A stretch of 64,000 nt of DNA from the NCBI RefSeq assembly GCF_000469585.1, contig NZ_KI273144.1, positions 46,753-110,752 of the forward strand, written 5' to 3'. The notes beneath the pieces are model-generated. The model had not been told where the DNA came from, searched no databases, and saw only the letters and a program-made list of their open reading frames with translations. Origin of the DNA: Chrysiogenes arsenatis DSM 11915. GTDB taxonomy: Bacteria > Chrysiogenota > Chrysiogenetes > Chrysiogenales > Chrysiogenaceae. This document shows, piece by piece, positions 3,293 to 20,800 of the stretch (position 1 is its first letter; each line of letters opens with the position of its first letter). The position numbers and the translations under genes were made by a program.

Positions 3293-4539
3293 ACCTCTTC
3301 CTCCAATCGAACCAAATCATCGAACGTTTCACGACGGCGCACGACACGGTACGTATCGCCATCCACCATCACTTCCGCTACTCGCGGACGACTATTATAA
3401 TTCGAACTCATTGTGAAACCATACGCCCCAGCACTCATCAGCGCCATCAGATCACCTGCGGCAAAGGGAGCCACCGATCGCTCACGCGCAAAGAAATCAC
3501 CCGTTTCGCAAATCGGCCCTACCACGTCAGCCAAAGCCGTTCCCTGCCGACCTGCGGCCTCATCTGCCGGGAGAATGTCGTGATAACTGCCGTACAGTGA
3601 CGGGCGTGCGAGGTCGTTCATAGCGCCATCGACGACAATAAACTTCCGCTCATAATTGCTTTTCGTATAAATAACGCGGGTCAGGAAAATCCCAGCATTG
3701 CCGACCAATACCCGTCCGGGCTCGAAAATCAGCTCACAACCAAGATCGGCTACAATCGGGCGGATGGCACGCGCCAGCTCTTCTGGCGAAGGTGGCGTTT
3801 CCGCGTTATACCGAATTCCAAGTCCGCCGCCCATATCAAGGTAGCGCAACACAATCCCCTGCTCACGCAAATCGAGCACCAGCTGCCGAATAATTTGCAA
3901 GGCATCAACAAAGGGCTGAATATCGGTCAATTGACTTCCAATATGGCAGTGTACGCCAACGACTTCCACATGACTCAAACCATGCGCGTACTGGTAGTCG
4001 TCCATCACTCCTTCGATACCAATGCCAAACTTATTTTGACGTAGACCAGTCGAAATATAGGGATGCGTCCCGGCATCAACGTTCGGATTCACCCGAATGG
4101 CAATCGGTGCTACCTTGCCAAGCGATTTGGCCACCTGCTGAATCACGTCCATTTCGCCACGAGATTCGACGTTAAACATCTTGATGCCGATTTCCAGCGC
4201 GCGGGCAATTTCATGCGACTGCTTGCCAACACCCGCATAGACAATCATCGCAGGGTCAATGCCAGCCTTCAGGGCACGGAATAATTCGCCACCACTGACA
4301 ATATCAGCACCAATCCCTTCGCCAGCAATCGTCCGCAAGACACTCAGATTACTATTGGCCTTTACTGCAAAACAAATCGTATGGGGAATTCCCGCAAAGG
4401 CTTCACGAAAGACGCGACAATGGCGCACCAGCGTTTGACGCGAATAGACATAGACTGGCGTTCCCACCTCATCCGCAATGCGCGAAAGCGGCACCCCTTC
4501 GCAGTGTAACTCACCGTGCTGATATGAAAAATAGTGCAT
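3289..4539 (-). CDS. lysA: Diaminopimelate decarboxylase (LysA)
   Basis: Fold-type III PLP enzyme that decarboxylates meso-DAP to L-lysine. The PLP-binding Lys is in ICFAVKANSNLSVL. Further signatures are HCHIGSQLTDI, the phosphate-binding EPGRVLVGNAG, and the cross-subunit CETGDFFARER block. 416 residues, standard. First gene of the minus-strand operon lysA-dapF-dapA-dapB-kdsC-lptC-like. The ATG at 4539 follows GTAGGGATC. The roughly 150-base divergent region shared with mtnP is too short to hold a lysine riboswitch, and I see none. Confidence 0.97.
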   Translation of the reverse strand: MHYFSYQHGELHCEGVPLSRIADEVGTPVYVYSRQTLVRHCRVFREAFAGIPHTICFAVKANSNLSVLRTIAGEGIGADIVSGGELFRALKAGIDPAMIVYAGVGKQSHEIARALEIGIKMFNVESRGEMDVIQQVAKSLGKVAPIAIRVNPNVDAGTHPYISTGLRQNKFGIGIEGVMDDYQYAHGLSHVEVVGVHCHIGSQLTDIQPFVDALQIIRQLVLDLREQGIVLRYLDMGGGLGIRYNAETPPSPEELARAIRPIVADLGCELIFEPGRVLVGNAGIFLTRVIYTKSNYERKFIVVDGAMNDLARPSLYGSYHDILPADEAAGRQGTALADVVGPICETGDFFARERSVAPFAAGDLMALMSAGAYGFTMSSNYNSRPRVAEVMVDGDTYRVVRRRETFDDLVRLEEEV

Positions 4540-4617
4540 GATCCCTACCCATAAAAGAAAAAATTGATCCGTGAAATACCCCTACCAATAAGCCAAAACA
4601 GCGTTCTATTGCCTCGA

Positions 4618-4646
4618 TTGACTTTTGCAGATCGCCACTATATAAA
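4618..4646 (+). promoter_or_regulatory. Sigma-70 type promoter of mtnP
   Basis: TTGACT at 4618-4623 and TATAAA at 4641-4646 are separated by exactly 17 bases. Each hexamer is one mismatch from consensus. The likely transcription start falls about 35 bases before the mtnP ATG, leaving room for the AGGTG ribosome binding site at 4676-4680. Confidence 0.75.
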
Positions 4647-4687
4647 CATTTTCGTGAGAGTTCAAAATAAAATTCAGGTGAAAACAA

Positions 4688-5551
4688 ATGAGAAGAATTG
4701 GAATCATCGGCGGCAGCGGCCTCTACCAGATGGAAGGACTCACAAATCGGCACGAAATAGAAATCGAAACTCCCTATGGTTCGCCCAGCGACTCCGTTCT
4801 CGTCGGCACCTTGGGCGATTGCGAACTCTGTTTTCTGCCACGACACGGGCGGACGCACACCATCGCCCCCAATGAAATTAACTTTCGCGCCAACATTTAT
4901 GCCCTGAAAACACTGGGAGTGGAAACCATCGTCAGCGTGAGCGCCGTTGGCAGCCTGCGTCAGCACATTGCGCCCGGAGATTTCGTCATCGTCAACCAGT
5001 TTATCGACTTCACCCGTAGTGGCCGCCCGTCGACTTTTTTTGAAAAAGGGATTGTCGGACACGTCAGCATGGCCGATCCCGTATGCCCATCGCTCCGAAA
5101 AAACCTGATAGAAGCCGCAACACAAACCGGCGTCAACGTCCACACAACGGGCACCTACATCTGCATGGAAGGGCCGCAGTTTTCCAGTCGCGCCGAAAGC
5201 CATGTGTACCGCCAGTGGGGAGCCGACGTGGTCGGGATGACCAATATGCCGGAAGCCAAGCTGGCGCGCGAAGCAGAAATCTGCTACGCCACCGTTGCCC
5301 TTTCCACGGATTATGATTGCTGGAAAGAAGAGGAAGAAGCGGTCAGCGTGGAAATGATTCTCGACACCATGCACCGCAACGTGGTGAATGCCAAGAAAAT
5401 GTTGGAAATTTTCGCTCACATGGCACCAAATCAAACCGCCTGCCACTGCCAAGAAGCCGCTCGCTACGCGATTATTACCCCTCGCGATGCTATCAGCGAG
5501 GAGATTCAAGCCAAGCTTGAACCGCTGTACGGGAAGTATTTCGCAATCTGA
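4688..5551 (+). CDS. mtnP: S-methyl-5'-thioadenosine phosphorylase
   Basis: Nucleoside phosphorylase of the PNP/MTAP family that splits methylthioadenosine into adenine and methylthioribose 1-phosphate (methionine salvage, polyamine by-product removal). Seen: GIIGGSGLYQMEGL at the N-terminus, the phosphate-site block LPRHGRTHTIAPNEINFRAN, MEGPQFSSRAES, and VGMTNMPEAKLAREAEICYA. STDYDCW has Asp at the purine-specificity position, typical of adenine-selective MTAP rather than guanine-selective PNP. 287 residues. No other methionine-salvage genes are adjacent. It is divergent from lysA and monocistronic, with a hairpin just after it. Confidence 0.92.
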   Translation: MRRIGIIGGSGLYQMEGLTNRHEIEIETPYGSPSDSVLVGTLGDCELCFLPRHGRTHTIAPNEINFRANIYALKTLGVETIVSVSAVGSLRQHIAPGDFVIVNQFIDFTRSGRPSTFFEKGIVGHVSMADPVCPSLRKNLIEAATQTGVNVHTTGTYICMEGPQFSSRAESHVYRQWGADVVGMTNMPEAKLAREAEICYATVALSTDYDCWKEEEEAVSVEMILDTMHRNVVNAKKMLEIFAHMAPNQTACHCQEAARYAIITPRDAISEEIQAKLEPLYGKYFAI

Positions 5552-5602: not shown

Positions 5603-5641
5603 AACAGGGCAATGCGACACCACCTGACGCATTGCTCTGTT
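5603..5641 (+). terminator. Hairpin after mtnP, probable weak terminator
   Basis: Fourteen-base inverted repeat, AACAGGGCAATGCG paired with CGCATTGCTCTGTT (one G-U pair), with an 11-base loop. It begins 51 bases after the mtnP stop. No U-run follows, so it could be a factor-dependent terminator or an RNA-stability element instead. Confidence 0.5.
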
Positions 5642-5684
5642 ACCCTCCTCTTCGTAGCAAAATATTCCGCAAGAGGAGGAGAAC

Positions 5685-6227
5685 ATGAGCAGAGTCTGGC
5701 AATGGATGTTTCGAGTGGGTATCGTTCTTGGCACAGTGGTTATACTCGCAGGCTGCGATAGCGCCTATGAGTCAATGGTAAGGAACGGCACGCTCGACAT
5801 GGATCCAACAATCAGCATTGATGATGCCTTCAGCAATTACCCCTATCTCAAAGCAAAATCATGGCAAGTATTTGACGATGCCCAAGGGCGAAAAGTCGTC
5901 GAGTTTACCGCAACTCCTGATTACAACGTCTATCTTGGATCAACTTTTAACCGGATGGAAATTACGGCTGACATACTTGAACGGGCAAAGTTGAAACTCG
6001 CCCCAATGCAAGTCACCTATCAAGCACAGTTTGTTATTAACAAAAACGCCAAAACCTTTTCCATCCGCTATAGCGGTATCAAAATAGTAAACACGCAAAA
6101 CCCAAATCCAGAAGCCGTGCAAGATGTGACCGATAACCGACTTGAAATGGTCGCAAACATTTACCGCAACGTGCCCGACACATCCATTTGGGGTTTACTG
6201 TATTCCGCTGGTAATAGTCAAAAATAA
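5685..6227 (+). CDS. Hypothetical lipoprotein
   Basis: A 180-residue exported lipoprotein of unknown role. The N-terminus has a basic start, a hydrophobic core and the lipobox LAGC (Cys about residue 22), followed by D-S, so inner-membrane retention is possible if Asp+2 rules apply. The mature part contains long beta-prone stretches (for example KVVEFTATPDYNVYLG and VTYQAQFVINKNAKTFSIRY) and no motif I recognise. An AGAGGAGGAG ribosome binding site precedes the ATG. It sits between mtnP and the accessory island and may be a single-gene unit. Confidence 0.8.
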   Translation: MSRVWQWMFRVGIVLGTVVILAGCDSAYESMVRNGTLDMDPTISIDDAFSNYPYLKAKSWQVFDDAQGRKVVEFTATPDYNVYLGSTFNRMEITADILERAKLKLAPMQVTYQAQFVINKNAKTFSIRYSGIKIVNTQNPNPEAVQDVTDNRLEMVANIYRNVPDTSIWGLLYSAGNSQK

Positions 6228-6245
6228 CACACTTCGAGGTGCTGC

Positions 6246-7082
6246 ATGCTACTTGCTCTCACTCGCGGTAAGGGGCGTTATTTTCAATGCGGTTATGGAT
6301 GGCACCACGATCATGGAGTCTATCTGTGTGATGAGCCAGAACTGATTTCAATGATCTTTGGGAGCTTATCGCTCCTTCCACCTGAACTTATTGCTCGTTT
6401 CTGGGTGTATTTTCTACGAACTTGCGTCGCACCAAATGTGCCGGATACGGCTCCGGCTCAGGCGCACATGAATCTGTGGCCAGAACGAAGTGACGCTCAG
6501 GGGCATACCACTATCATGCCCGATGCCCATGTGCGCCTGATATGGCCGCATGGCAAAACGTTTACCCTGTTAATCGAAACAGAATGGAACCATGCCAGAG
6601 TGCGTGATCCAAGGCAGCTCTACCGCCAATGGAGCGAATACCTGAGTGCAGAAGAACAACAGAGCGGCTGGCACCTGTATATCGGCCATGATACCAGCGC
6701 GGCATTGCGCGAGCAACGCTTAGGCAATATCTGGGCAGGACGCCTGATCGCCATTAACTGGTTCGCATTTCTTGGAATGTTACTCAGAGTCGAAACCATC
6801 ATCCAGCAGTGCTTCGACACACAGCACGAACTCACTCATTTGCTGCCGTGGACAAGCAACGTTATCGCTTTGTTAGAGCGTCTTGGCGTGAGGACGTTTG
6901 AAGGATTTCGCGACTTGCCTGAAGGCGGCGTGATCGTTCACCAAAGCTCATCCCTGTTTTGGCGCGAGTATTCTGGCTTTGCATGGTTGCGTCATGCTAA
7001 TCGCAACACTCTCCTGCCAACAGGCATTTTCTTTACGTCAAAATCAAAGAAAGGGATCACCGATGAACGTAAAAACTATTAG
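6246..7082 (+). CDS. Uncharacterised protein with a PD-(D/E)XK-like core
   Basis: A 278-residue protein, first gene of a tightly packed trio. GAGGTG lies upstream of the ATG. The middle holds a candidate nuclease core. Asp93 is in MPDAHVRLIW, then a hydrophobic strand leads to Glu111-Thr-Glu113-Trp (LLIETEW), followed by QLYRQW, whose Gln fits the post-core helix of this superfamily. The third acidic/basic position is Glu rather than Lys, a known variant (D...ExE). The 3' end overlaps the next gene by 20 bases. The nuclease fold is inferred from pattern only, and substrate and role are unknown. It could equally be an inactive relative acting as a structural partner of the downstream exonuclease. 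Confidence 0.6.
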   Translation: MLLALTRGKGRYFQCGYGWHHDHGVYLCDEPELISMIFGSLSLLPPELIARFWVYFLRTCVAPNVPDTAPAQAHMNLWPERSDAQGHTTIMPDAHVRLIWPHGKTFTLLIETEWNHARVRDPRQLYRQWSEYLSAEEQQSGWHLYIGHDTSAALREQRLGNIWAGRLIAINWFAFLGMLLRVETIIQQCFDTQHELTHLLPWTSNVIALLERLGVRTFEGFRDLPEGGVIVHQSSSLFWREYSGFAWLRHANRNTLLPTGIFFTSKSKKGITDERKNY

Positions 7083-7743
7083 TGAAAGCCTTGCCAGCAG
7101 CCTGCATATAGTGAACCTTGCGGGTCGCGAAGTGAACAGCTTGCTTGACCTTATCAAGCAATGTATGAATCTCGAAATCACCCGCCTAAGTCACATCGTA
7201 AAAATCACCCAGGCGTGGCAATCCAACAGCAGGATTTCAGAGACAGGTTGGGTGATGACCGATAAAGCCATATCGTTAGGTCTTGGCATGAGTGGTTACC
7301 CTACGGGACGCTTTTTTAATATACAGGTCAGCATGATGGGCGATGGCGTGTGCACGCAGGAGCACGAAAATACCTTCCCTTTGTTACATGTCTATCTCTC
7401 CGGCTCTGCAACATCATTTTTGAACGGGAAATGCCTCTCAATCGGTGATATTTCGGATCAAACCATGACCCTCCAAGAGGGGGTGTTTTTCAATGGAGCC
7501 GTCGATGCCGAGTGCTGGGTGGATAAATGCTGGTCATACACGCTGTATCTTGCTTCCATCAATTGCCTTGATGACATTCAATCAAACATTGTGGCACCAT
7601 TTTCTGACCTGATGACCGGAAAAGATGTTATGAGTTCCAATATCAAAAAACTTCCCGGCATTGTTCGGTACGAATCGCTCACCAATCGCATGTACCGCGT
7701 AAGGCCGATGCAGGTGAAATCGCAACTATCCGAGGAGTTATGA
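7063..7743 (+). CDS. Uncharacterised protein between two nuclease-like genes
   Basis: A 226-residue protein of no recognised family. The ATG at 7063 is chosen because AAAGGGATC precedes it; an upstream in-frame ATG at 6979 would overlap its neighbour by over 100 bases. No signal peptide or membrane segment is evident. The sequence looks like a mixed alpha/beta cytoplasmic protein (N-terminal helix, then FNIQVSMMGDGV, LLHVYLSGSATSFLNG, LQEGVFFNGAV). Its stop overlaps the start of the Cas4-like gene as ATGA, so the two are probably made in fixed proportion. Function can only be guessed from this coupling: an accessory subunit or specificity partner of the exonuclease. Confidence 0.6.
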   Translation: MNVKTISESLASSLHIVNLAGREVNSLLDLIKQCMNLEITRLSHIVKITQAWQSNSRISETGWVMTDKAISLGLGMSGYPTGRFFNIQVSMMGDGVCTQEHENTFPLLHVYLSGSATSFLNGKCLSIGDISDQTMTLQEGVFFNGAVDAECWVDKCWSYTLYLASINCLDDIQSNIVAPFSDLMTGKDVMSSNIKKLPGIVRYESLTNRMYRVRPMQVKSQLSEEL

Positions 7744-9203
7744 CCACACTGTCAAAATCGCGCCTCATTGCATATCGTCAATGTCCCAAACGGCTGTGGC
7801 TCAGCGTTCACGCGCCCGAACGTGCCAATGAATCAGAAACGGGAAATCGTATGGCGATGGGAATCGGAGCTGGCGAGGTTGCTCGCACCCTATTCCCTTC
7901 GGGTGTACTGATACATGCCGGAACCATTGCAGAAGCGCTGCAACAAAGCGCTCAGCTTGTCGAACGCAAACCAAAAACCCCACTCTTTGAAGCCACCTTT
8001 TGCCATAAAAACGTGCGGGTGCAGGTTGATATCCTGCGCCCTGCACGTGGTGGCTTTGACATCGTGGAAGTCAAATCTTCAACAGAACCCAAAGAGTACC
8101 ATACTGAAGACGCCGCCATCCAAACGTGGGTGTGCCAACAAGCTGGTATTGCTGTCAAGAAAACGCACCTTGCCACTCTCAATAAATCCTTTATCTATCC
8201 TGGAAAGCAACAGTACGACGGGCTCTTTACCTTTACTGATATCACCAGCGAAGTCGAAGCCCTGCAAAAAGAGGTTCCCCGTTGGGTGCGAGCCGCCCGA
8301 AAAACGCTCACCACAGCGAATGCACCGGAGATTGAACCCGGTGCGCAGTGTCACGCTCCCTTTGCATGCCCGTATATTGACTTCTGCACTGAAGGGCTGC
8401 CACAAGAAAAGTACCCTCCAGAACTTTTTGGCACGCGAGGAACATTTGCAACAGACCTGCGTAAGCAAGGGTATACCGACATTCGGAAAGTTCCCAAATC
8501 ACTGCTGGGCGAGTGCCCCAAACGCTTGCGCATCTGGCGAGCTACCCGCAGTGGCAAAGCAGAACTTGACCCCGCCGCCGGTGAATACCTGCAAACCCTT
8601 TCCTATCCGCGCTACTATATTGATTTTGAAACTATCTCGCTTGCCGTCCCCATCTGGAAAGGAACAAGCCCCTTTCAACAAATCCCTTTCCAATGGTCGT
8701 GCCATAAACAAAGCGCCAGCGGCACAATGCACCACCGTGAATTTCTGGATATCAGTGGCAAAGATCCCAGCAAGCAGTTCCTTGAAAGCCTCATCAAAGA
8801 GCTTGGAAAACGTGGTTGCATCTTCGTGTATAACCAGTCATTTGAAGCCGGAAGACTAAAAGAACTCGCAATGCGCTTTCCTGAATATGCCGAGCAAGTT
8901 GCTGCCATTATTGAGCGCATGGTAGACCTGCTTCCCCTTGCCCGTGATAACTACTACCACCGCGACATGCGCGGGAGCTGGTCAATTAAAGCGGTGCTAC
9001 CCACCATCGCGCCCGATCTTGACTATGCGCAACTGAGTGACGTGCAGGATGGCAAACAGGCGGGGGTGGCATACATGGAAGCGATTAATCCAGTAACAAC
9101 GGCTGCGCGTCGCAATGAATTGTGGCGCGCCATGGTAGGGTATTGTAAGCTGGACACAGAGGCAATGGTGAGGTTGGTGGCGTTTTTTGAGGCTCGTTAT
9201 TAG
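7740..9203 (+). CDS. Cas4-like RecB nuclease fused to a DEDD exonuclease domain (DUF2779 type)
   Basis: A 487-residue two-domain protein. The N-terminal half is Cas4/RecB-like. Cys15 (RQCPKRLW) together with Cys204, Cys210 and Cys216 (CHAPFACPYIDFC) could hold a 4Fe-4S cluster. Asp97, Glu110 and Lys112 (VDIL...VEVKSS) and a later Gln in AAIQTW form a PD-(D/E)XK active site. The C-terminal half matches DUF2779 as I know it and reads as a DnaQ-like exonuclease: Asp295 and Glu297 in YYIDFET, an N-x-x-F-E motif in FVYNQSFEAG, and Tyr468-x3-Asp472 in YCKLDTE (DEDDy type). Two nuclease sites in one chain imply processing of DNA ends or structured nucleic acid. The biological role of the family is not established to my knowledge. 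No cas genes are nearby. Confidence 0.82.
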   Translation: MTTLSKSRLIAYRQCPKRLWLSVHAPERANESETGNRMAMGIGAGEVARTLFPSGVLIHAGTIAEALQQSAQLVERKPKTPLFEATFCHKNVRVQVDILRPARGGFDIVEVKSSTEPKEYHTEDAAIQTWVCQQAGIAVKKTHLATLNKSFIYPGKQQYDGLFTFTDITSEVEALQKEVPRWVRAARKTLTTANAPEIEPGAQCHAPFACPYIDFCTEGLPQEKYPPELFGTRGTFATDLRKQGYTDIRKVPKSLLGECPKRLRIWRATRSGKAELDPAAGEYLQTLSYPRYYIDFETISLAVPIWKGTSPFQQIPFQWSCHKQSASGTMHHREFLDISGKDPSKQFLESLIKELGKRGCIFVYNQSFEAGRLKELAMRFPEYAEQVAAIIERMVDLLPLARDNYYHRDMRGSWSIKAVLPTIAPDLDYAQLSDVQDGKQAGVAYMEAINPVTTAARRNELWRAMVGYCKLDTEAMVRLVAFFEARY

Positions 9204-9271
9204 TTCAAAAAGTTTTAGACCATCTTTAATCGCCTCAACACATGTAATTAATAAACACACATGGAGGGAAC

Positions 9272-9922
9272 ATGGCTAATCGACTATCTATGCAGGTAAT
9301 TGTCGAACAAGTTTTGGTAGGCATTGAAGAAGCCCAAAAATCATATCAGGAGTGGACGGGTGGATCGTGGCTTTGGGAGGCTCCCGAATATTTAATCACG
9401 TGCTCTATCGCTAAGCGGATAGCCGAAGCTGATGGAGCTAAATATTTAACCCTTGAGAATGGTTCTACAAATGCGCTCAAGGATGCAGGAGCCCTAGGTA
9501 GGGGGAAGCTATCGCATAAGATACGTGAAAAAGGGCGTGTTGATATACTGGTTTGGTGGGGAAATGGACACCCTCGGGGGATAATAGAAGTGAAAAACCA
9601 GATTTATTCAAAAGATTCATACGCAAAAGATATTGAGCGAATAAAAGGATTTTTATTACGAAAAGGAAACGACTCGTCGTTGCAATTCGGAGCCTTCGCG
9701 TTTTATGAGTCAGCAGTCTCTGGCTCACGGAAAACAGCACAACAGAAAATAGATGGTCGTATCCAGACAATCTTTAGCCGTGCAAAAGAAATATGTGGCG
9801 ATACGCTTAGCTTGTCACTTCATGAAACAGATTACCATGAAGACATTCAGGATAATGCTTGGGCCGCAGCTTGTATTTTAATAAAAAAGATTTCAACTGG
9901 AACTGATATTAGCGAGGAATAG
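9272..9922 (+). CDS. Standalone PD-(D/E)XK nuclease-like protein
   Basis: A 216-residue protein with GGAGGG before its ATG, 68 bases after the previous gene. A compact PD-(D/E)XK core is visible: Asp91 in GRVDILVWW, then Glu106-Val-Lys108 in GIIEVKNQIY, preceded by an N-terminal helix with an acidic residue. The core resembles restriction-endonuclease-like or nuclease-associated domains. The codons are noticeably AT-richer than the flanks (many AAA, AAT and ATA), a sign of separate acquisition. No methyltransferase accompanies it, so an ordinary restriction-modification pair is not supported. Function unknown; the nuclease fold is an inference from the motif. Confidence 0.72.
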   Translation: MANRLSMQVIVEQVLVGIEEAQKSYQEWTGGSWLWEAPEYLITCSIAKRIAEADGAKYLTLENGSTNALKDAGALGRGKLSHKIREKGRVDILVWWGNGHPRGIIEVKNQIYSKDSYAKDIERIKGFLLRKGNDSSLQFGAFAFYESAVSGSRKTAQQKIDGRIQTIFSRAKEICGDTLSLSLHETDYHEDIQDNAWAAACILIKKISTGTDISEE

Positions 9923-9935
9923 TTCCCTCCTGCCA

Positions 9936-9956
9936 ATGCGACATATCTTGTCGTAC
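9936..9956 (+). promoter_or_regulatory. Operator-like motif A, ATRCGAC-N7-GTCGYAC, upstream of the AAA+ gene
   Basis: The 21 bases contain CGAC (9939-9942) and GTCG (9950-9953) separated by 7 bases. The same pattern with matching flanks occurs at 12111-12131, upstream of the WYL regulator gene. Here it ends 44 bases before the AAA+ ATG at 10001. Dyad symmetry and the shared spacing fit a dimeric regulator; the WYL protein is the obvious candidate, which is inference. Confidence 0.55.
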
Positions 9957-10000
9957 CACCGCGCTACACTTTGGACATACCAACCGTAGCGAGGTGCAAT

Positions 10001-12085
10001 ATGTCCAAGTTAGAGCAGTACGAACAAAGTATCATGTGTTTCTACCTTTACAATGCGTTGCGTAAAGCCGATAGCGGAATCAACAGAGTGATTTCTGAGT
10101 TTGTTACCTATGTGTATCGCAACTCCGTCTTGCTTGGGGTTGAATTGCCGGACGAGCTTGTGGAACACACTCAGGATTTTACTGGAAAGCGATTGCCACT
10201 CAGGGTATGCATTGAAACGAAAGTTGCGCTGATTGAACTCCTTGAACCGCAAGTGGCACGGTTGCCATCAGTGCCACTCAGCGAATTAGAAAAAACCTTG
10301 CGTAATTTATCCGACATTGTCGAGCTTGATCCACTTGACCACCGTATTTTCGGCTTCTTTGTACGTATGGAACGTTACAAATTACACGAAGACCCATTCG
10401 CCTATTTCAGAAATTGTTGTGATCATGCACGAACTGCTTTTGCATGTATTCTTGATATGTCGATATCTGAGATAACCAAACGAATTCATCTCGCTGGAGA
10501 GCTGTATCTTACTGGTTTGTTTAAAGATGCTATCAACTGGAATCATCAGTTCATTCAAGACACTTGCTCGTTCAGTGACCAAGTGTTGCAGGCTATTGAA
10601 GATGCCCCTCAAACAAGAAAGGGACTCCGCGCTGCGCTACTGGGCGCTTCGTCAACTCCGAGATTGCGATGGGATGACTTTGCCCATATAGCAGAATTGC
10701 GTGATAATCTTGCAAAATTCTTGCAGCACGCATTGCAGACTGGCGAGCGCGGCATTAACATTTTGCTGTATGGCCCTCCGGGAACGGGTAAAACAGAGAT
10801 TTGCAAATCACTTGCAAAAAATCTGCACGCCCAGCTTTATCCTGTTATGGAAATGAACAATGATGGTGAAGAACCTAACCGCAATGATCGCTTGAGTTCG
10901 TATCGCATACTCCAGCGCCTGCTGAGCAAGCAACAGAATTCATTGATCATGTTTGACGAAATTGACGATGTTTTTAGCTCTAGAGACATCTTGGCGTATA
11001 GCGGAAAAAGGATCGGGTCGCTTTCAACATCGAAAGTTTATATGAATCGTTTGCTGGAAGGGAACCGAGTACCGACATTCTGGATTATAAATGATGTCAG
11101 CAATATCAGCAGTGCCATTATCCGCCGTATGACACTGGCAGTAGAGATGCCGGTTCCACCCATCGATGCGCGGCAGAAGATATGGAAGCGGATTACACGC
11201 AAGCGCGGCATTACACTCACCAATGCAGATGCCACAGCGCTAGCGGCCTTCGATGCGTCTCCGGCGATTGCCGAAAGCGCCACGATTTATGCCAAAGCGA
11301 TGGGGAATTCCCTTGATGATTTTCGTTTTGCAACGTTTGGCCTTTTAAAGGCGATGCACGGCAAAGAGGTTGTGGAAGATTCCTTTCACGTTGGTGCCGA
11401 TCATTACCTGCCGCAGTTAGTTCACCACGATTCCGGTATTGCTGGCATCGAAAGCAATCTGAGCAAGCTCCGTCAGCATCCATTTTCGTTGTGTTTGTAC
11501 GGTGCTCCCGGAACGGGGAAAACGGCCTATGTGCGCCATCTCGCCAAACAGCTTGGTATGCCGGTATTGCAAAAGCGAGCGTCTGATTTGCTGGGTATGT
11601 TTGTTGGGGAAACGGAAAAGCAAATTTCCGAAGCGTTTCGCGAAGCGGCGAACAGTAAAAGCTTTCTGGTGTTTGACGAAGCGGACTCATTTCTGGCGGA
11701 TCGTCGCCATGCGGTACGTCAGTGGGAAGTAAGTCAAGTCAATGAGATGCTTACGTGGATGGAGCGCCATCCGCTCCCGTTTGCTTGCACAACAAATCTG
11801 ATTGAACGGATTGATCCTGCGTCGCTGCGTCGTTTTACGTTCAAGTGTCGCTTCGATTTTATGAAGCCAGAGCAGGTGAAACTCGCATTCCGGCACTTCT
11901 TTCGGATAACGGTGGACGATCGGCATATACGCGAACTTACCATGCTGACGCCGGGTGATTTTGCCTTGGTGCAGCGTAAAGCTGAGCTTACTGGTGCAAA
12001 ACACGAAATTACTTCGCTGGTCGCGTTGCTGAAAAATGAAATGGTAGCGAAACAGTTGACGCAATCAAATCCCATTGGTTTTTGA
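10001..12085 (+). CDS. Tandem AAA+ ATPase of an accessory island
   Basis: A 694-residue protein with an unrecognised, mostly helical N-terminal domain (about 1-230) and two AAA+ modules. Module 1 has Walker A GPPGTGKTE near residue 257 and Walker B LIMFDEIDD near 315, with an IIRRM segment that could supply arginine fingers. Module 2 has Walker A GAPGTGKTA near 501 and Walker B FLVFDEAD near 555, with sensor-like CTTNLIERIDPASLRRF. Both sites keep the catalytic Glu, so both are probably active. The architecture resembles Cdc48/p97-type unfoldases more than Clp or MoxR. ATG at 10001 is chosen for GAGGTG upstream; a TTG at 9971 lacks a site. It is followed by a WYL regulator, and both genes carry the same operator-like motif. 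Client and role unknown; defence is plausible. Confidence 0.8.
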   Translation: MSKLEQYEQSIMCFYLYNALRKADSGINRVISEFVTYVYRNSVLLGVELPDELVEHTQDFTGKRLPLRVCIETKVALIELLEPQVARLPSVPLSELEKTLRNLSDIVELDPLDHRIFGFFVRMERYKLHEDPFAYFRNCCDHARTAFACILDMSISEITKRIHLAGELYLTGLFKDAINWNHQFIQDTCSFSDQVLQAIEDAPQTRKGLRAALLGASSTPRLRWDDFAHIAELRDNLAKFLQHALQTGERGINILLYGPPGTGKTEICKSLAKNLHAQLYPVMEMNNDGEEPNRNDRLSSYRILQRLLSKQQNSLIMFDEIDDVFSSRDILAYSGKRIGSLSTSKVYMNRLLEGNRVPTFWIINDVSNISSAIIRRMTLAVEMPVPPIDARQKIWKRITRKRGITLTNADATALAAFDASPAIAESATIYAKAMGNSLDDFRFATFGLLKAMHGKEVVEDSFHVGADHYLPQLVHHDSGIAGIESNLSKLRQHPFSLCLYGAPGTGKTAYVRHLAKQLGMPVLQKRASDLLGMFVGETEKQISEAFREAANSKSFLVFDEADSFLADRRHAVRQWEVSQVNEMLTWMERHPLPFACTTNLIERIDPASLRRFTFKCRFDFMKPEQVKLAFRHFFRITVDDRHIRELTMLTPGDFALVQRKAELTGAKHEITSLVALLKNEMVAKQLTQSNPIGF

Positions 12086-12088
12086 TTC

Positions 12089-12117
12089 TTGACAATGGTG
12101 GCGGAACTTTATACGAC
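12089..12117 (+). promoter_or_regulatory. Possible promoter of the WYL regulator gene
   Basis: A perfect TTGACA at 12089-12094 lies 17 bases before TACGAC (12112-12117), a weak -10 that overlaps the shared operator motif. The -35 is convincing and the -10 is not, so treat this as tentative. If real, a protein bound to the motif would block RNA polymerase. Confidence 0.35.
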
Positions 12118-12131
12118 CCTCCATGTCGCAC
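12111..12131 (+). promoter_or_regulatory. Operator-like motif B, ATRCGAC-N7-GTCGYAC, upstream of the WYL gene
   Basis: CGAC at 12114-12117 and GTCG at 12125-12128 are again 7 bases apart, with AT-R before and Y-AC after, as in motif A at 9936-9956. It ends 42 bases before the preferred WYL start at 12174, against 44 bases for motif A and the AAA+ gene. The matching placement supports one regulator acting on both promoters. Confidence 0.55.
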
Positions 12132-12173
12132 GCATCGGTATGCTTGGTGTTATTTGACAGGGGGTGTGGTGAT

Positions 12174-13178
12174 ATGGAAAAGAATTTTGACACGCTCTTG
12201 CGCCAATGGGCAATGTTGCAGATGCTCAGCACTCGCCGTTATGTTGCAGCGCGTGAGATTCTGGAAAGGCTTCAGGACGCCGGATACCGCACGACCATCC
12301 GTACGGTTCAACGTGACTTGCAAAGTCTTTCAACGGTATTTCCGATAGAAAGTAATAACTGCAAGCCAATCGGATGGCGTTGGGTAAAGGATGGTCAGAT
12401 TTTCAGTATTCCTGGCATGGATACAGCCACCGCGCTCACGCTCCGTTTGGTTGAGAGTTACCTCCAGAACATACTGCCGCATAGTTGCATGGAAACGCTG
12501 GCACCACACATGCTACACGCCAAGGAGGTGCTCAGTGCACATGCTGGGAATGCCTTTGTGCAGTGGCCGGAAAAAATCCGGGTTATCTCCCGCGCATTTC
12601 CGCTTATCCCACCGGCAATTAACCCCGAAATCATGGAGACCGTATATCAGGCGCTGCTTGAAGAGCGCCAGATAGAAGCCCACTATCGGCGGCGTGGCGA
12701 GAAAGCGCATCAAGTCTACACCATTCACCCTTTAGGTATTGTGGTGAACGACCACATCCTCTACTTGGTCTGTACGCTGTTTGATGAGCAAGAGCCAAAG
12801 TTGCTGGCGCTTCACCGTTTTTTAGAAGCACACAAGACTGACGCGCCAAGCCTGCGATCGGCAGGGTTTACGCTTGATGGCTACATTGCCAGTGGCGCCA
12901 TCGGATTCGCTGACGCTGACGCGAAAATGATTACGTTGAAAGTGATATTTGCGCACCACGCAGCTGGTCATCTGCAAGAAACTCCACTATCGGAGAACCA
13001 AAAGCTGACGCCACTGGCTGATGGCCGTGTTGCGCTGAGCGCCAAAGTGGTTGACACCAGACAATTGCGCTGGTGGCTTCTGGGATTCGGATCGCAGGTT
13101 GAAGTTATCGCTCCGAAAAGGTTGCGCCAAGAGTTTGCTGGCATAGCGCAGGAAATGGTGTGTCGGTACACAGAGTAG
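12174..13178 (+). CDS. WYL-domain transcriptional regulator
   Basis: A 334-residue regulator. The N-terminus (about 1-60) is a winged helix-turn-helix, with RYVAAREILERL and TIRTVQRDLQSL as recognition elements. The central part is a WYL-type domain, seen as IHPLGIVVNDHILYLVC and LLALHRF, where the motif residues are degenerate. The C-terminus resembles the WCX extension (WWLLGFGSQVEVIAPKRLR). WYL proteins sense nucleic acids or nucleotides and often control phage-defence loci such as BREX and CBASS. The start at 12174 follows GGGGGTGTGGTGAT; ATG at 12123 is also in frame but overlaps the operator-like motif. It probably controls itself and the AAA+ gene. Confidence 0.85.
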   Translation: MEKNFDTLLRQWAMLQMLSTRRYVAAREILERLQDAGYRTTIRTVQRDLQSLSTVFPIESNNCKPIGWRWVKDGQIFSIPGMDTATALTLRLVESYLQNILPHSCMETLAPHMLHAKEVLSAHAGNAFVQWPEKIRVISRAFPLIPPAINPEIMETVYQALLEERQIEAHYRRRGEKAHQVYTIHPLGIVVNDHILYLVCTLFDEQEPKLLALHRFLEAHKTDAPSLRSAGFTLDGYIASGAIGFADADAKMITLKVIFAHHAAGHLQETPLSENQKLTPLADGRVALSAKVVDTRQLRWWLLGFGSQVEVIAPKRLRQEFAGIAQEMVCRYTE

Positions 13179-14407: not shown

Positions 14408-17077
14408 ATGCTTACATTCGCCACAGGATTCCCAACACTTGACCTTGGCAACACCATAAAAAGCGGTAATAGTCGCACCGGAACTCCCTCTGAATCAGGG
14501 TTTTTCGGCCTACTCAATAGTATGCTGCAACGCAGCACTCCGATAAGCGGAACCGCCACCACATTTTCATCCGAACAGCGCCAAGCACTCCTCAGCGGTG
14601 CGCGCGATCAGCTTGGCCAGCAACTCAAACTCGCCGGCATTGACGACGCCACGCTGAGTGCGTTCTATACCGCAGAACCGGAAACCATGCAACTCACCCA
14701 CCTGTTGGAACAGATCGCGGGGCAACTGCTCCCTGCATCTCCTATGCAGCAGGCAACGCAGTGGCTCGCCGAAGCCAATAGCGCACTTGTCGAAGCAAAC
14801 ACGACTGAATCCAATACGCTGAACCCCGACCAATGGCGCGAGTGGTTTTTACTGATGGAAAAATTTTCGACCTCGTCCGCACAGAAAAAACCCCAAGAGA
14901 ATGATGGCGAAAAGGGGTTTACTCATCTGCGACAATCACTCCTGCTAGGCGCGATGGCTCAAAGCGTAACTACTGAAAAAGACAAGCAAAAACCTGAATT
15001 AAATGGCGCTGAAATACAAACAGAAAACCTCTTTGCACTTCAACAGATACCAGAATCACTTCCTGAAATAGATGAGAGCGAAACGGAGACGCTCGCCGCG
15101 CTGCGACAAATCGTTCAATCGTTGCAAGAAGCATTGCGCGAAATGAATCAACTCACCGAGTCCATGGGCATTAACCCCAACGACTACCCCACCGCATTCG
15201 CGCAAATTTTCCAGTCAATCGACGCCATGAAAGATCAGCAAAAGGCGTTGACCGAAATGCTCACCGCTGTCATGGAAAGTTTTTCCCAACCGCTAGGCGA
15301 AGGGGCAAACGCAACACCTCTCGGGCAACTCCCACTTTCTGAAACGGGGAAGGCACTCCTTGATACGCTGACACAAACCAACTTCGATCTCCGCCAGCTT
15401 CTGCAAAACTGGCAGAATACTGGCGCAATGAATCCCACCGAAGCGCTGCCGCAACTCGCACAATCACTGGCCAGCATCCAAATGGGACTGAGCCGCGCCG
15501 TTGCCATTCCGGCGGCTGACGGCGCAAGCGTCTTGCAAATCGTGCAGCGCGACTATCACGCCCTTTTATTTGGCACCGTCAGCGCCGTGGAAAATCTGCC
15601 GCAAGATACGCTTTTCTCTAACTTTAAAGAGCAACAACCGCGCCGTGACAATCCACTTGCTACCCCGCCGGAAACTACCGCCAAAACAGGTGAAACCGCA
15701 GTGAAAAATTTTGCCGTGGCCGAAACTTCTGAAAGCGAAGCAAATAAAGCTCCGCTAGTGGCAACTTCCACAAAAACAGATCCTGCTTCCCAAGCAATGA
15801 ATGCTCACCTTCAGGCCACAGAAAAAGACCCCAAAGCTATGACCGAAGCAACGGTAGAAAAAGCCCCTGTCCATGAACCTAAAAACATAGCCGATGGGTC
15901 GACTCCGGCGAAGGCCACCGACAGTGACGTAAAAGCATCGACTGAGCCTAAGGGTAACACAGAGCCCAAAACTACTGTTGAGCCAAAAACGGTTGAGCCA
16001 AAAACACCTTTGCCAACGAATACCCCTGCCGATCCCAAAATAGTCACACTCACGCAGACAAAAAGTGATCTACCTGTTGACGCCGCGTTGAGCGAAACCG
16101 ACGACGATGCAGAAAACACCATCCCCATGGCGACCGCACTGAAGAAAGATATCTCCAAAGAATCTGACACGATCTCTCATCGCACGCAACTCAAAGAACC
16201 TGAAAAAATTGCCGATCCCCTTGCGCCAAAGACGAGCGAAGAGCGCGAACGGATCGCACAGGCGGCACGTATCGCTGCTATGGAACAACCAACATCAGAT
16301 ACCGGAAAATCTATCGCACCACCATCAACCGCAATCGTTGCGCCGAATAGTGAAGTTGGTACCGAAAAAATTGCCGCTCCACCCATACCAAACAATACTC
16401 CCGCACCAAGCACTGCGGCAACACCAAGCAGTAAGGAGCAGGCCGAACCAACATCTCTTATGATGAGCAGCGGCAGCCAAAACGGCCAAACCCAAGACCA
16501 GAATAGTCAGGATACACCGCAGCAACAACAGAGCGGACGTGAATGGATGAGTCGCGAAACCGTCGCACCCCGCACCACCAGCGAGACGCCCGCCACCCCG
16601 CTCACCACCCGTGAAATCGAAGACGCCACCGATCAAATCATCCGTAAAGTCACCATGAGCACCCGTGGCGAACTCAAAACACTTACGATTGCCCTCAGAC
16701 CAGAATACATGGGGAAAGTAAATATCCGCCTCAGCGTCGAAGCCGGCGTTCTCACGGCACGGGTTATGGTGGAAAACCCTTCGCTGCGGCACGGTTTGGA
16801 ACAAACTTCCACGCGCATACAGGAAGCTATTTCTTCTCTTGGACTGAAAGTAGAGCGCTTTGATATCGTACAACCATTTGCAGAATCACAGTCTAACCAC
16901 AACGGCAACCAGTTTGCTAATACTCAGTTCCAGCAAGGACAGGAAAACCAACAGCGAAAGAATCGCTCCCTGTCATCAGACCAAAGGGGCGCGCCCCAGA
17001 AAAACGAAGATGAGCCACAAGGAGGAGAGAATCAGTACCACTATCGTACGTCTCAATCTCTGAACCTCATAGCATAA
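14408..17077 (+). CDS. fliK: Flagellar hook-length control protein FliK
   Basis: Secreted molecular ruler that switches the flagellar export apparatus from hook to filament substrates. The C-terminal Flg_hook domain is clear at about 745-820 (LTIALRPEYMGKVNIRLS and GVLTARVMVENPSLRHGLEQ). It is followed by a Gln/Asn/Ser-rich tail. The rest is a low-complexity, Pro/Thr/Glu/Ala-rich region with short repeats (EPKTTVEPKTVEPKT near residue 520). At 889 residues it is about twice the length of enteric FliK. First gene after the sigma-54 promoter, with AGGAGG before the ATG, and directly upstream of flgD and an exceptionally large flgE. Confidence 0.9.
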   Translation: MLTFATGFPTLDLGNTIKSGNSRTGTPSESGFFGLLNSMLQRSTPISGTATTFSSEQRQALLSGARDQLGQQLKLAGIDDATLSAFYTAEPETMQLTHLLEQIAGQLLPASPMQQATQWLAEANSALVEANTTESNTLNPDQWREWFLLMEKFSTSSAQKKPQENDGEKGFTHLRQSLLLGAMAQSVTTEKDKQKPELNGAEIQTENLFALQQIPESLPEIDESETETLAALRQIVQSLQEALREMNQLTESMGINPNDYPTAFAQIFQSIDAMKDQQKALTEMLTAVMESFSQPLGEGANATPLGQLPLSETGKALLDTLTQTNFDLRQLLQNWQNTGAMNPTEALPQLAQSLASIQMGLSRAVAIPAADGASVLQIVQRDYHALLFGTVSAVENLPQDTLFSNFKEQQPRRDNPLATPPETTAKTGETAVKNFAVAETSESEANKAPLVATSTKTDPASQAMNAHLQATEKDPKAMTEATVEKAPVHEPKNIADGSTPAKATDSDVKASTEPKGNTEPKTTVEPKTVEPKTPLPTNTPADPKIVTLTQTKSDLPVDAALSETDDDAENTIPMATALKKDISKESDTISHRTQLKEPEKIADPLAPKTSEERERIAQAARIAAMEQPTSDTGKSIAPPSTAIVAPNSEVGTEKIAAPPIPNNTPAPSTAATPSSKEQAEPTSLMMSSGSQNGQTQDQNSQDTPQQQQSGREWMSRETVAPRTTSETPATPLTTREIEDATDQIIRKVTMSTRGELKTLTIALRPEYMGKVNIRLSVEAGVLTARVMVENPSLRHGLEQTSTRIQEAISSLGLKVERFDIVQPFAESQSNHNGNQFANTQFQQGQENQQRKNRSLSSDQRGAPQKNEDEPQGGENQYHYRTSQSLNLIA

Positions 17078-17100
17078 CAACCCCACTTGGGAGGGATACC

Positions 17101-17847
17101 GTGAACGACGTAAATATTATCAAAAACATAGGCAACATTGATGACTGGCAGACACTCAAACCTGCACTGCCAAAACAAGAAATGGGGAAAGACGAATTCC
17201 TCAAGCTCCTTATCACCCAAATGCAACAACAGGATCCCACCAATCCGATGGACAACGCTCAGATGATTGCGCAAACCGCGCAGTTCTCCTCGCTCGAACA
17301 AATGAGCAACATGGCCAAATCCATGGATAAGCTGGTGGATATGCAAAACCAACTCCTGACCTTTGGTGCCGCCTCGTATGTCGGGATGGAAACCAAAGCC
17401 GCCGGTGATGCGCTGGTGGTGTTCGGCGGTAATACCGAACCCATCGAGTTCAATCTCGCCGCCGATGCCAAAGAAGTGAAAGTAAGTATTTACAACGATA
17501 AAAGTGAACTTGTGCGGATTATCGATCCGGGCGGACTCGATAAGGGGTCGCAAACCCTTTACTGGGAAGCGATCAACAGCGGCGGCGATCCGCTGAAAGA
17601 CGGCAACTACCGCTTTCAGGTAAGCGCAACCGATCAACTCGGCGAAGCTGTCGGAGTTGACACTTTCACCGTCGGACGGATTATGGCCATTCGCTACGAT
17701 GCCGATGGCGTGAAGTTTGTCGTCAACGGGAAAGATTTCCAAATGAAAGACCTACAGTCCATCTTCCCACCATCCGCACCATATGTGCCTGATGATGAAG
17801 ATGCCGAAGCAGAAAATACTGAACAACCAGAAACAAGTACAACCTGA
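17101..17847 (+). CDS. flgD: Flagellar hook assembly scaffold protein FlgD
   Basis: Cap protein that assists FlgE polymerisation at the growing hook tip and is then discarded. The N-terminal export/capping region carries the signature FLKLLITQMQQQDPTNPMDN and AQFSSLEQM. The C-terminal half matches FlgD Ig-like and tudor-like folds (VKVSIYNDKSELVR, DGNYRFQVSATDQLG). 248 residues with an acidic tail. The start is GTG at 17101 with GGGAGGG upstream, 23 bases after fliK. Confidence 0.94.
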   Translation: MNDVNIIKNIGNIDDWQTLKPALPKQEMGKDEFLKLLITQMQQQDPTNPMDNAQMIAQTAQFSSLEQMSNMAKSMDKLVDMQNQLLTFGAASYVGMETKAAGDALVVFGGNTEPIEFNLAADAKEVKVSIYNDKSELVRIIDPGGLDKGSQTLYWEAINSGGDPLKDGNYRFQVSATDQLGEAVGVDTFTVGRIMAIRYDADGVKFVVNGKDFQMKDLQSIFPPSAPYVPDDEDAEAENTEQPETSTT

Positions 17848-17868
17848 AAATAGAAGAGAGGCGCTATC

Positions 17869-20800
17869 ATGTTACAGTCACTCTATGCCGGCGTATCCGG
17901 CCTGATCAATCACCAACGCAGTATGGACGTCATTGGTAACAACATCTCGAACGTCAACACCGTCGGTTATAAGAAATCACAAGCAGGATTTGCCGACATC
18001 ATGAGTATGAATATCGGTGGCTCCTCCGTTAATCCTATGCAGGTTGGTCTTGGGACACGGGTCAACTCGACGAACCTCATCTTCTCGCAAGGTGGTATCG
18101 AAGCAACCAATAAAGCCACTGACCTTGCGATTTCTGGGCGCGGCTTCTTTGTCGTGAGTAACGGTGTCATGGATTATTATAGCCGCAACGGGAACTTCAT
18201 CTTTAATAACGCAGGGAAACTCGTTACTCCAGAAGGGTTGGTTGCTCAAGGGCGCTTGGCGACTCAGGATAAATACGGCGATTTCTTCATCAACCAAACC
18301 GGTGAAATTGTTGACATTCAAATCCCTGTTGGCGTTAAAAGCCCAGCCAAAGCCACCACGAACGTTGAGCTTGGCGGTAACTTGAACTCCGTTGCACTCG
18401 GGACTATCCTTGAAACACCAGAACTGCGCGCCATGGTTGATGGGACTGACGACATTTCGCAACTCTACAATCAGACTGGCACCCATATTTCACTCCTGAA
18501 CGATCAGCCGGTTATTTTGAAGGCACATGGCACGTCCATTACGAACATTGGACAGTTGTATAACTCGGGGGATGAAAACCTTGGCATTCGAGACGGGGAT
18601 ACTTTTAAGATTACCCTTACCAAAGATGGTGCCAGCCCGGCTCCCCTTGTATTAACCTACCGCGCAAAGTCTGGTGATGAATACTCCATCAATGGCATTC
18701 CGCGCGATCTTGATCCGAGCGATACGAACTTCAGCACCCTTGGTGGACTAGCAGACAAAATAAAATCGGCCTTTGCCTCAGATATTGCAGAGTTGACCAT
18801 TGTTGAAGGGAAGTTACAAATGAAGGCGTCAAACCCCATTGCCTCCTTCTCGTTGGACTCCAACACGGTTCCCTCGAATTCTAAATTCAACAACATCATG
18901 GCCGGAGTCGAAGGCTCCTATGCTACAGGAGATATTAAAACCTCTGGCGAACTGTTTTTTCAATCCAAGTACGTCAAAGGTGATGACTTCAACTCGCTTG
19001 CCGAACTCACTGGACGACTTGAAAGTGGCATGAAAAATATTAGCCAAGCGGCCAAAGTCTACTTAGGTGATGTGGGGGCATTTGAATTCAAAGACAACAA
19101 TGACCGGATTCGCGTCTCCATGAATGTAGCCGGCACGACTGTCACACAAGAATACTACTACTCAACCGCCTCTAACCCTGAAGGGCGCGATGCTTCCAAT
19201 GAAGGTGGTGTTGACAGTTTTGCCAAACCATTTTCAACCCTTGATGAGCTGATACAAGCTATCAATAGTGACTTTGCGCCGGGGAATAATACTATAACTA
19301 TGACTGACGGCGATATTATTGGGGCTGCATCAAGCGCTATTGTAAATGGGAAAATTGCTACACTCGCTGCGCCGCTTGTAGAAAACACAATTATTACAAA
19401 CACTACCGCAGCTGAAATTATCTTGAGAGATGGAAAAAAAGATGCCAATAACCAGTATCGAACCTTAACAATACCTGGAACCGTCCCAGGCCCAGCTGGT
19501 GTAGTTACAATTCTGGCTAATGGAAAAGTAGATGTAAATGGAACAGAATACGACTTTACCTTCCCCAAAGGAATGCAACTTCCAAATGGCCTGCAAATTG
19601 ATAATCAAGATACTAAATTTTACTACACTGCCATTGGATCGACTACCGGCGGCACACTTGACACGGTTCAACATAACTTGATTCGCGCCAGTAATGACGG
19701 TGGCCGCATCCGTTTTGAAAACATTTCTGGGGTGGAATTGCAAGATGTGCAGGTGGTTTACAGTGGCGTCAACATTGGCAACGATAAAAAAGTCAATGAA
19801 CTCCTTGATGACCTGAATGGAGTCTACACCGCCGATTCTGACCCAAAAATATCTGATCCCCTTGGCGGCAAAATTGTTTACGACAACAACAACGACGGCG
19901 GATTTAGCCTTACTGCTATGGGCTTTGCAGATACCAGAGACAGCTTTAGCATCTTACTTTCGAATGCGCCTATTGCAGCAAATAATGCCCCAGTAATGGC
20001 GACGTTTGTCTACGACCCAACGAACCAACTCCCAGAGGTCACGAGCGATGGCTCCTATACTTTTAGCTCACTTGATGAATTGCTTGCAGTTATTCAAGAG
20101 GCGCAAGGAACCCTTGTTACCGCGCCTGCTGAAAGAATTGCCTACTCCATTACCGCTGATGGGCGAATTAAAGCAACCACGGCTGTTGCTATTGATCCCA
20201 GCAGTGACGGCAGCCCTGAGACCTTCTTCAATATTAACACTATTGCACCTTCACTGGTACCCAACTCAATTGGGGACGGAGCAGTAGCGCCCGGCAATCT
20301 TCCGCTTACCCTTAACCTTACCAAACGGGGAGAATCGACGCCAACTACATTAAACTTAAACCTTAACGCTATCGCTACGTTCGATATGGATGGAATTGCA
20401 AAATATCTTGAAGACGAAATTGTCGCTCAAGGGGTCACTGGCTTTAAGGTAGAATGGACAGGAAAAGACTTTCTTTTCAAAAACCCGAGTAGTGGCGGCT
20501 TGACCAAGCTTGAGATCACCTTTGACGATACAAATAACTTTGATAACATTTTGAATCCACTCTTTGCACCAGTCAATAGCACGATTTTTTCGGAAGGGGT
20601 ACATGCCCGAACCCGACAAATTGGATATGAAGAGTCGCCAATAGTCTATAGCGGTACCAATATTACGACACGCTACCTGCTCAACGCGGCTCCATCGGCT
20701 CCATTTAATACCGCAAACGGGTTGAGCTTCGCAGGTACTGGCGAGTCAGGGATCCTCCGCGCAAACTTCTCGCACAACATTACGGGAGCAGAAATCATAT

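Follow-up and report, generated by a model that had tools for sequence, protein, structure and literature searches.

The locus and its features

The window analysed here is a 64,000-nt stretch of the 2,825,161-bp (2.83 Mb) genome of Chrysiogenes arsenatis DSM 11915, and coordinates without a locus handle are window positions. It contains a gene for a double AAA+ ATPase (10001-12085) and, adjacent to it on the same strand, a gene for a WYL-domain regulator (12174-13178), each preceded by a palindromic operator-like element. These gene coordinates were correctly given in a first-pass annotation made from the sequence alone, as were two copies of the pattern ATRCGAC-N7-GTCGYAC (9936-9956 and 12111-12131), which have zero mismatches and end 44 and 42 bases before the respective starts. 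A third operator (5612-5632), with two mismatches to that pattern and overlooked at the time, lies 52 bp upstream of a lipoprotein gene and extends the locus upstream to a total of seven genes (5612-13178): the ATPase gene, the WYL gene, and a tightly spaced five-gene operon on the + strand (5685-9922) encoding a lipoprotein, two uncharacterised proteins, a DUF2779 protein, and a Tin/HSDR_N-like protein. The features are as follows.

5612-5632, no strand: third operator, TGCGACA-N5-TGACGCA (ATGCGACACCACCTGACGCAT); position weight matrix (PWM) score 20.3
5641-5646, + strand: predicted -10 element TACCCT, at +19 from the operator centre (fixed-offset analysis)
5685-6227, + strand: lipoprotein-like protein, 180 aa, leading the operator-preceded operon; 34% identity with the two copies in sister genome G002, which likewise follow an operator
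6246-7082, + strand: 278-aa protein, function unassigned; 35% identical to G002 L109:5161-5862
7063-7743, + strand: 226-aa protein, function unassigned; 35% identical to G002 L109:5831-6523
7740-9203, + strand: DUF2779 protein, 487 aa, predicted nuclease; PF11074, E=3e-48
9272-9922, + strand: Tin/HSDR_N-like protein, 216 aa, candidate nuclease-like protein; PDLC02359 (PADLOC P2 Tin) E=1.4e-9, HSDR_N_2 E=0.24
9936-9956, no strand: operator before the ATPase gene, ATGCGACATATCTTGTCGTAC; zero mismatches, matching the published DriD consensus (PMC12340889)
9965-9970, + strand: predicted -10 element TACACT (GCTACACT), from the promoter alignment and fixed-offset analysis
10001-12085, + strand: Cdc48-like double AAA+ ATPase, 694 aa; Pfam AAA twice, AlphaFold model, Foldseek
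12111-12131, no strand: operator before the WYL gene, ATACGACCCTCCATGTCGCAC; zero mismatches
12139-12144, + strand: predicted -10 element TATGCT, at offset +18
12174-13178, + strand: winged helix-turn-helix (wHTH)-WYL-WCX regulator, DriD-like, 334 aa; PF13280 and PF25583, clade profile against DriD

Occurrence and specificity of the operator

In the whole genome, exact matches to ATRCGAC-N7-GTCGYAC were found only upstream of the ATPase and WYL genes (2 copies), and the backwards-read version gave 0 matches. At three mismatches the pattern was not above chance in the window (14 observed, 15.7 expected), and for this reason only exact and near-exact sites were counted. The core of the operator is better expressed as TGCGACA-N5-TGTCGCA; a -10 element follows about 19 bp after the centre of this core. 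With a PWM of this core, sites were located upstream of ATPase genes across phyla, and also before ADP-ribosylglycohydrolase (ARG), DUF2779, RtcB, AddB, and WYL genes. A held-out test, in which the matrix was derived from the host family (f1) alone and applied to the other loci, gave p<0.05 for 23 of 50 ATPase upstream regions against 2.5 expected, with many values at the test floor. Orthologous WYL genes are likewise operator-preceded (L123:7790 and L109:15002), and the operator lies 52 bp upstream of both G002 lipoprotein copies as well (L109:661-679 and 4474-4492). Conservation of the gene pair and its motif across genomes, a check set beforehand, was thus borne out, and the motif is an operator-like element conserved with the pair across phyla.

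When the operator and the -10 element were joined in a single 34-base pattern, 14 matches were obtained in 51 genomes of the phylum, most of them upstream of ATPase, ARG with SIR2, AddAB-like, type I restriction-modification (R-M), or WYL genes; the reversed control gave 0 matches, and so did 291 unrelated genomes of another phylum. Alphaproteobacterial loci carry a related variant (TACGTCC-N5-TCTGACGTA-like) that scores low with the matrix. A locus-by-locus comparison of ATPase and WYL upstream regions did not find a shared palindrome in most loci, probably because a WYL gene lying in the same operon, as is usual, does not require a separate operator.

Matches of the operator/-10 pattern in viral contigs were set aside as mostly one repeated marine-phage element unrelated to the locus. 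This element, TGCGACA(N5)TGTCGCA(C)CGTGTAAGTAAGAT, recurs in dozens of viral contigs (L130-L173), sometimes before a MoxR-like ATPase gene; its palindrome is identical and its downstream sequence different, and it is possibly a phage promoter or hairpin.

Promoter geometry

Alignment of 46 operator-led promoters placed a -10-like TAnnnT at +19 from the operator centre. For the fixed-offset count, 40 of these promoters were kept, one near-duplicate and some of doubtful direction being dropped; all three letters were present at +19 in 17 of the 40 and at least two letters in 32, while the best offset in 2000 shuffles reached at most 7. Among separate later sites, several of which are related, TAnnnT was found at +19 in 7 of 21 and at +18 or +19 in 14 of 21. 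The -35 hexamer falls within the operator and, in the promoters printed, matches 0-2 of the 6 TTGACA positions, and a sigma-70 promoter scan of the window (good promoters defined as at least 9/12) returned none at the operator sites. Since the -35 is non-consensus while the -10 stands at a fixed offset, these promoters should be weak without an activator, and their arrangement appears to be an activator geometry, as in DriD-activated promoters.

The WYL regulator

DriD of Caulobacter crescentus activates transcription upon binding of single-stranded DNA (ssDNA) to its WYL domain, from a target (ATACGAC(N)7GTCGTAT) that overlaps the -35 at a fixed distance from the -10 (PMC12340889); DriD and PafBC are both ssDNA-driven WYL activators (PMC12340889, PMC11804915). 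In a search of solved structures with the single WYL sequence, DriD ranked first. A profile of the WYL clade aligned with DriD over its full length (E=9e-33), compared with 7e-18 for PafC, 5e-6 for CapW, and 8e-5 for BrxR, the last two being partial matches to the WYL domain only. All members of the clade have Arg43 and Arg47 in the recognition helix, as does DriD, and the WYL-pocket motif is ALHR here and RLDR in DriD. Conservation of DriD Pro125, which serves docking of the alpha C-terminal domain (alpha-CTD), seemed present by eye and was not borne out by the alignment.

In family f7, all six operator-positive genomes searched have one WYL protein each, with an R(S/T)AQR helix and mostly with an operator before its own gene, and all three operator-negative genomes are without a WYL protein. 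From the DriD-like profile, the operator match, the promoter geometry, the shared arginines, and this co-occurrence, we infer that the WYL protein binds the operator and activates. The first-pass annotation had read it as a repressor, a claim that does not fit an operator equal to the DriD activator consensus, a DriD-like profile, and a fixed -10 distance with a non-consensus -35; an activator, probably triggered by nucleic acid, is the more likely reading of these sequence features. The further proposal that the WYL gene controls itself stands as probable, an operator preceding the gene. The regulator may sense ssDNA.

The phylum also has a recurrent second WYL regulator (G000:C3:93155-94021; relatives in G001, G002, G006, and G019), whose recognition helix reads RTA(H/Q)RR and which may be a housekeeping DriD-like protein.

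Conservation of the pair and other genes under the operator

A sister genus, numerous proteobacterial genomes and plasmids, and some viral contigs contain homologs of the ATPase that are 28-45% identical to it. Among 47 ATPase-family loci, 31 have a WYL gene, mostly adjacent or overlapping. The genes around the pair vary and include those for DUF2779, ARG, AddAB-like nuclease-helicase, RtcB, and HEPN proteins and for a PLD-like protein with a helicase; DUF2779 accompanies the ATPase in 7 analysed loci and in a Rhodoferax locus (L228), which also has strong operator sites. The sister genome G002 keeps the lipoprotein, both uncharacterised genes, DUF2779, the ATPase, and WYL (34-62% identical, the DUF2779 counterpart being 62% identical), with a SoFic gene between WYL and the ATPase, and in a Burkholderiaceae locus (L034) the ATPase and WYL are accompanied by DUF2779 and the Tin-like gene. 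The earlier expectation that such WYL regulators stand at defence loci agrees with these neighbourhoods, the locus and its relatives sitting with defence-type genes.

In sister genome G001 the WYL gene is present (55% identical) but an ATPase of this family is not; the operators there stand ahead of the WYL gene, of an AddAB-like pair, and of an AbiE/DrmD-like helicase-methylase region. Four plasmid loci selected by their WYL gene (L224-L227) have strong operator sites and no ATPase. Overall, the clients of the operator include AddAB-like, AbiE, type I R-M, DrmD-like helicase and methylase, ARG, SIR2, and RtcB genes. Because the WYL clade and the operator also occur without the ATPase, before other genes (G001, L224-L227), the regulon extends beyond the ATPase, which is a frequent client among others, and the first-pass view of ATPase plus WYL as the module is not upheld.

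In the Pseudomonas aeruginosa plasmid locus (L225:3831-16027), the clade WYL gene has an EH-signature/helicase pair (Zorya-like) on one side and three dynamin-family genes on the other, and there is an operator at 8580. In the Vibrio plasmid locus (L226:3456-13166), an Hsp70 gene is flanked by two WYL genes, next to AbaSI-family endonuclease and TerB-ATPase genes, with operators at 4872 and 8834 and the -10 at +19. In G002 the operator-lipoprotein unit is duplicated (L109:661-1273 and 4474-5086), with a HipA-like family member (cluster c36) between the copies.

The double AAA+ ATPase

The ATPase consists of a helical N-domain (residues 1-215) and two AAA+ domains, D1 (about 224-450) and D2 (about 480-690). 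Its AlphaFold model has a predicted local distance difference test (pLDDT) score of 83.8 with an all-helical N-domain, and the nearest folds by Foldseek are Rix7, Cdc48, and p97, at about 18-20% identity in the aligned core. Walker A and B motifs in both AAA+ domains, the sensor-1 Asn, and the Arg-finger residues are invariant in 25 homologs; D2 has a pore loop of the aromatic-V-G type, and D1 is without the usual aromatic pore loop. Judged by this fold and these residues, the protein may act as an unfoldase or remodeller. Pfam gave no match for the N-domain (a Cac1_C hit at E=0.16 was regarded as noise), and fold searches returned the AAA+ core and nothing specific to the N-domain. None of the PADLOC and NCBIfam defence models fits the ATPase, in line with the first-pass statement that it matches no named defence system. 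PHROG 10401 matches it end to end, and the family therefore also occurs in phage or prophage proteomes.

An alternative in-frame TTG at 9971 falls on the predicted -10/transcription start, and GAGG precedes the ATG at 10001, which is for these reasons the better start. Elsewhere, one 1176-aa frame (L110, G047:C24, 8605-12135) contains two overlapping ATPase-family matches and is apparently a fused double copy; the same genome has a further full copy (L111:8374-10512).

Partner genes and surroundings

The DUF2779 protein has a Cas4/PD-(D/E)XK-like N-terminal part followed by DUF2779 (RNase H-like), the matches to Cas4, PDDEXK_1, and RNase_H_2 being weak. The P2 Tin match of the gene at 9272-9922 is weak and partial (residues 10-159 of 216); a 31% identical homolog lies in the Burkholderiaceae locus mentioned above, and searches of viral contigs and plasmids found none. 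Pfam searches gave no match for the lipoprotein-like and 278-aa proteins. Downstream (14408-21975), there is the beginning of an apparent flagellar hook-gene cluster (hook-length control, FlgD-like, FlgE-like), which places the island between housekeeping genes.

Interpretation

It is fairly probable that the genes of 5612-13178 form one of the client sets of an activator-driven WYL regulon of DriD type. In the working model that is most likely, nuclease, ATPase, and restriction genes, in varying combinations, are induced by a nucleic-acid-triggered activator. The WYL protein would bind TGCGACA-N5-TGTCGCA sites over the -35 region and, on binding a nucleic-acid signal (most likely ssDNA from phage replication or DNA breaks), would recruit RNA polymerase to promoters without a consensus -35. 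This would switch on the WYL gene itself, the ATPase gene, and the lipoprotein-to-Tin-like operon with its predicted DUF2779 nuclease. The ATPase might then pull apart protein or nucleoprotein complexes that its helical N-domain selects, exposing nucleic acid on which the nuclease-like partners would act.

Several observations weigh against this reading. Within the locus pieces examined, 16 of the 47 ATPase loci are without a WYL gene, and about half of the distant ATPase loci are without a detectable operator. For some clients (lipoprotein, PP2C, metallophosphoesterase) a role in defence is not obvious. Alanine replaces the first arginine of the RxxR pair in this protein and in nearly all other clade members, and the second is kept; a double mutant of PafB showed the pair to be required for ssDNA binding (PMC11804915), and because the pocket pair is down to one, the ligand may not be ssDNA. 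DriD reportedly does not control its own expression, whereas an operator precedes the WYL gene here. The repressor BrxR also binds half-sites 5 bp apart near the -35 (PMC9122589), so operator position alone is no proof of activation.

The alternative that survives best, although we hold it to be rather doubtful, is a programme of SOS-independent DNA and RNA repair and stress response, not immunity, in which the ATPase, DUF2779, AddAB-like, RtcB, and ARG proteins repair damaged nucleic acids and the defence genes are passengers. DriD itself runs a DNA-damage response, the clients include AddAB-like nuclease-helicases, RtcB, and ARG, an SRAP gene lies nearby, and Burkholderiales copies of the ATPase sit among housekeeping genes; against this, AbiE, type I R-M, DrmD-like helicase/methylase, and SoFic genes are under or beside the operator, and the loci are patchy, variable in content, and carried on plasmids and viral contigs. 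Control by a BrxR/CapW-type repressor is unlikely. WYL repressors of defence islands are established (PMC9122601, PMC9122588, PMC9122589), and one sitting over the -35 could keep the ATPase and cargo genes off until released by an infection-made ligand; the BrxR half-site spacing and the autoregulation suggested by the own-gene operator would suit it, but the clade resembles DriD much more closely than CapW or BrxR, the operator coincides with the DriD consensus, and little activity is expected of the promoters without an activator. That the ATPase and WYL genes share a hot spot by chance, with a coincidental motif, draws on the ATPase homologs that have neither WYL nor operator, but is refuted by the held-out conservation test and given almost no weight; the often directly adjacent or overlapping pairs and a cross-phylum operator with 0 control matches also speak against it.

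Beyond the activator-driven reading of this locus, it is tentatively proposed, as something that may hold but that we would not yet call probable, that the DriD-type activator and its conserved operator act together as an inducer of defence islands that is independent of SOS and spans phyla, that the ATPase, DUF2779, and Tin-like proteins are an undescribed defence system among its clients, and that the operator and -10 pattern can be used for mining more. If restriction, abortive-infection, and nuclease-helicase genes of several phyla do lie behind a DriD-type site, a DNA-damage-like signal would turn on some islands independently of LexA, suggesting a shared DNA-damage-to-immunity switch where islands with WYL guards have been known mainly through the repressors BrxR and CapW. 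The 34-base pattern is specific enough to find the regulon from sequence alone, and it offers a testable handle on an ATPase family of no known function. No literature linking DriD-type operators to defence islands or describing the ATPase-DUF2779 set was found in a search that left preprints and subscription papers mostly outside.

Comparison with known systems

By sequence, the regulator resembles DriD in its wHTH-WYL-WCX type, its target consensus (ATACGAC-N7-GTCGTAT), its recognition-helix arginines, and the position of its site over the -35 at a fixed distance to the -10 (the exact Caulobacter spacing lying outside the comparison). It differs in its own-gene operator, its ALHR pocket, its low overall identity, and a local defence-like gene set, whereas DriD controls didA, bapE, recJ, and dnaG. 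BrxR and CapW are likewise wHTH-WYL(-WCX) regulators found at defence islands, and their operators too are palindromic; the sequence match to them is far weaker, and these proteins repress.

The ATPase shares two catalytically intact AAA+ domains, as judged by residues, and the D2 aromatic-V-G pore loop with Cdc48/p97, Rix7, and VAT, but its helical N-domain is unrelated to that of the Cdc48 type. Its best PADLOC match is the AAA+ similarity to IetA of IetAS (E=5e-28); an assignment as IetA was rejected, since the match spans one AAA+ domain at 89.7 bits against an NCBIfam cut-off of 510 and there is no subtilisin-like (IetS) protease gene among the neighbours. P2 Tin is weakly and partially similar to the product of the gene at 9272-9922, and its genomic context is different.

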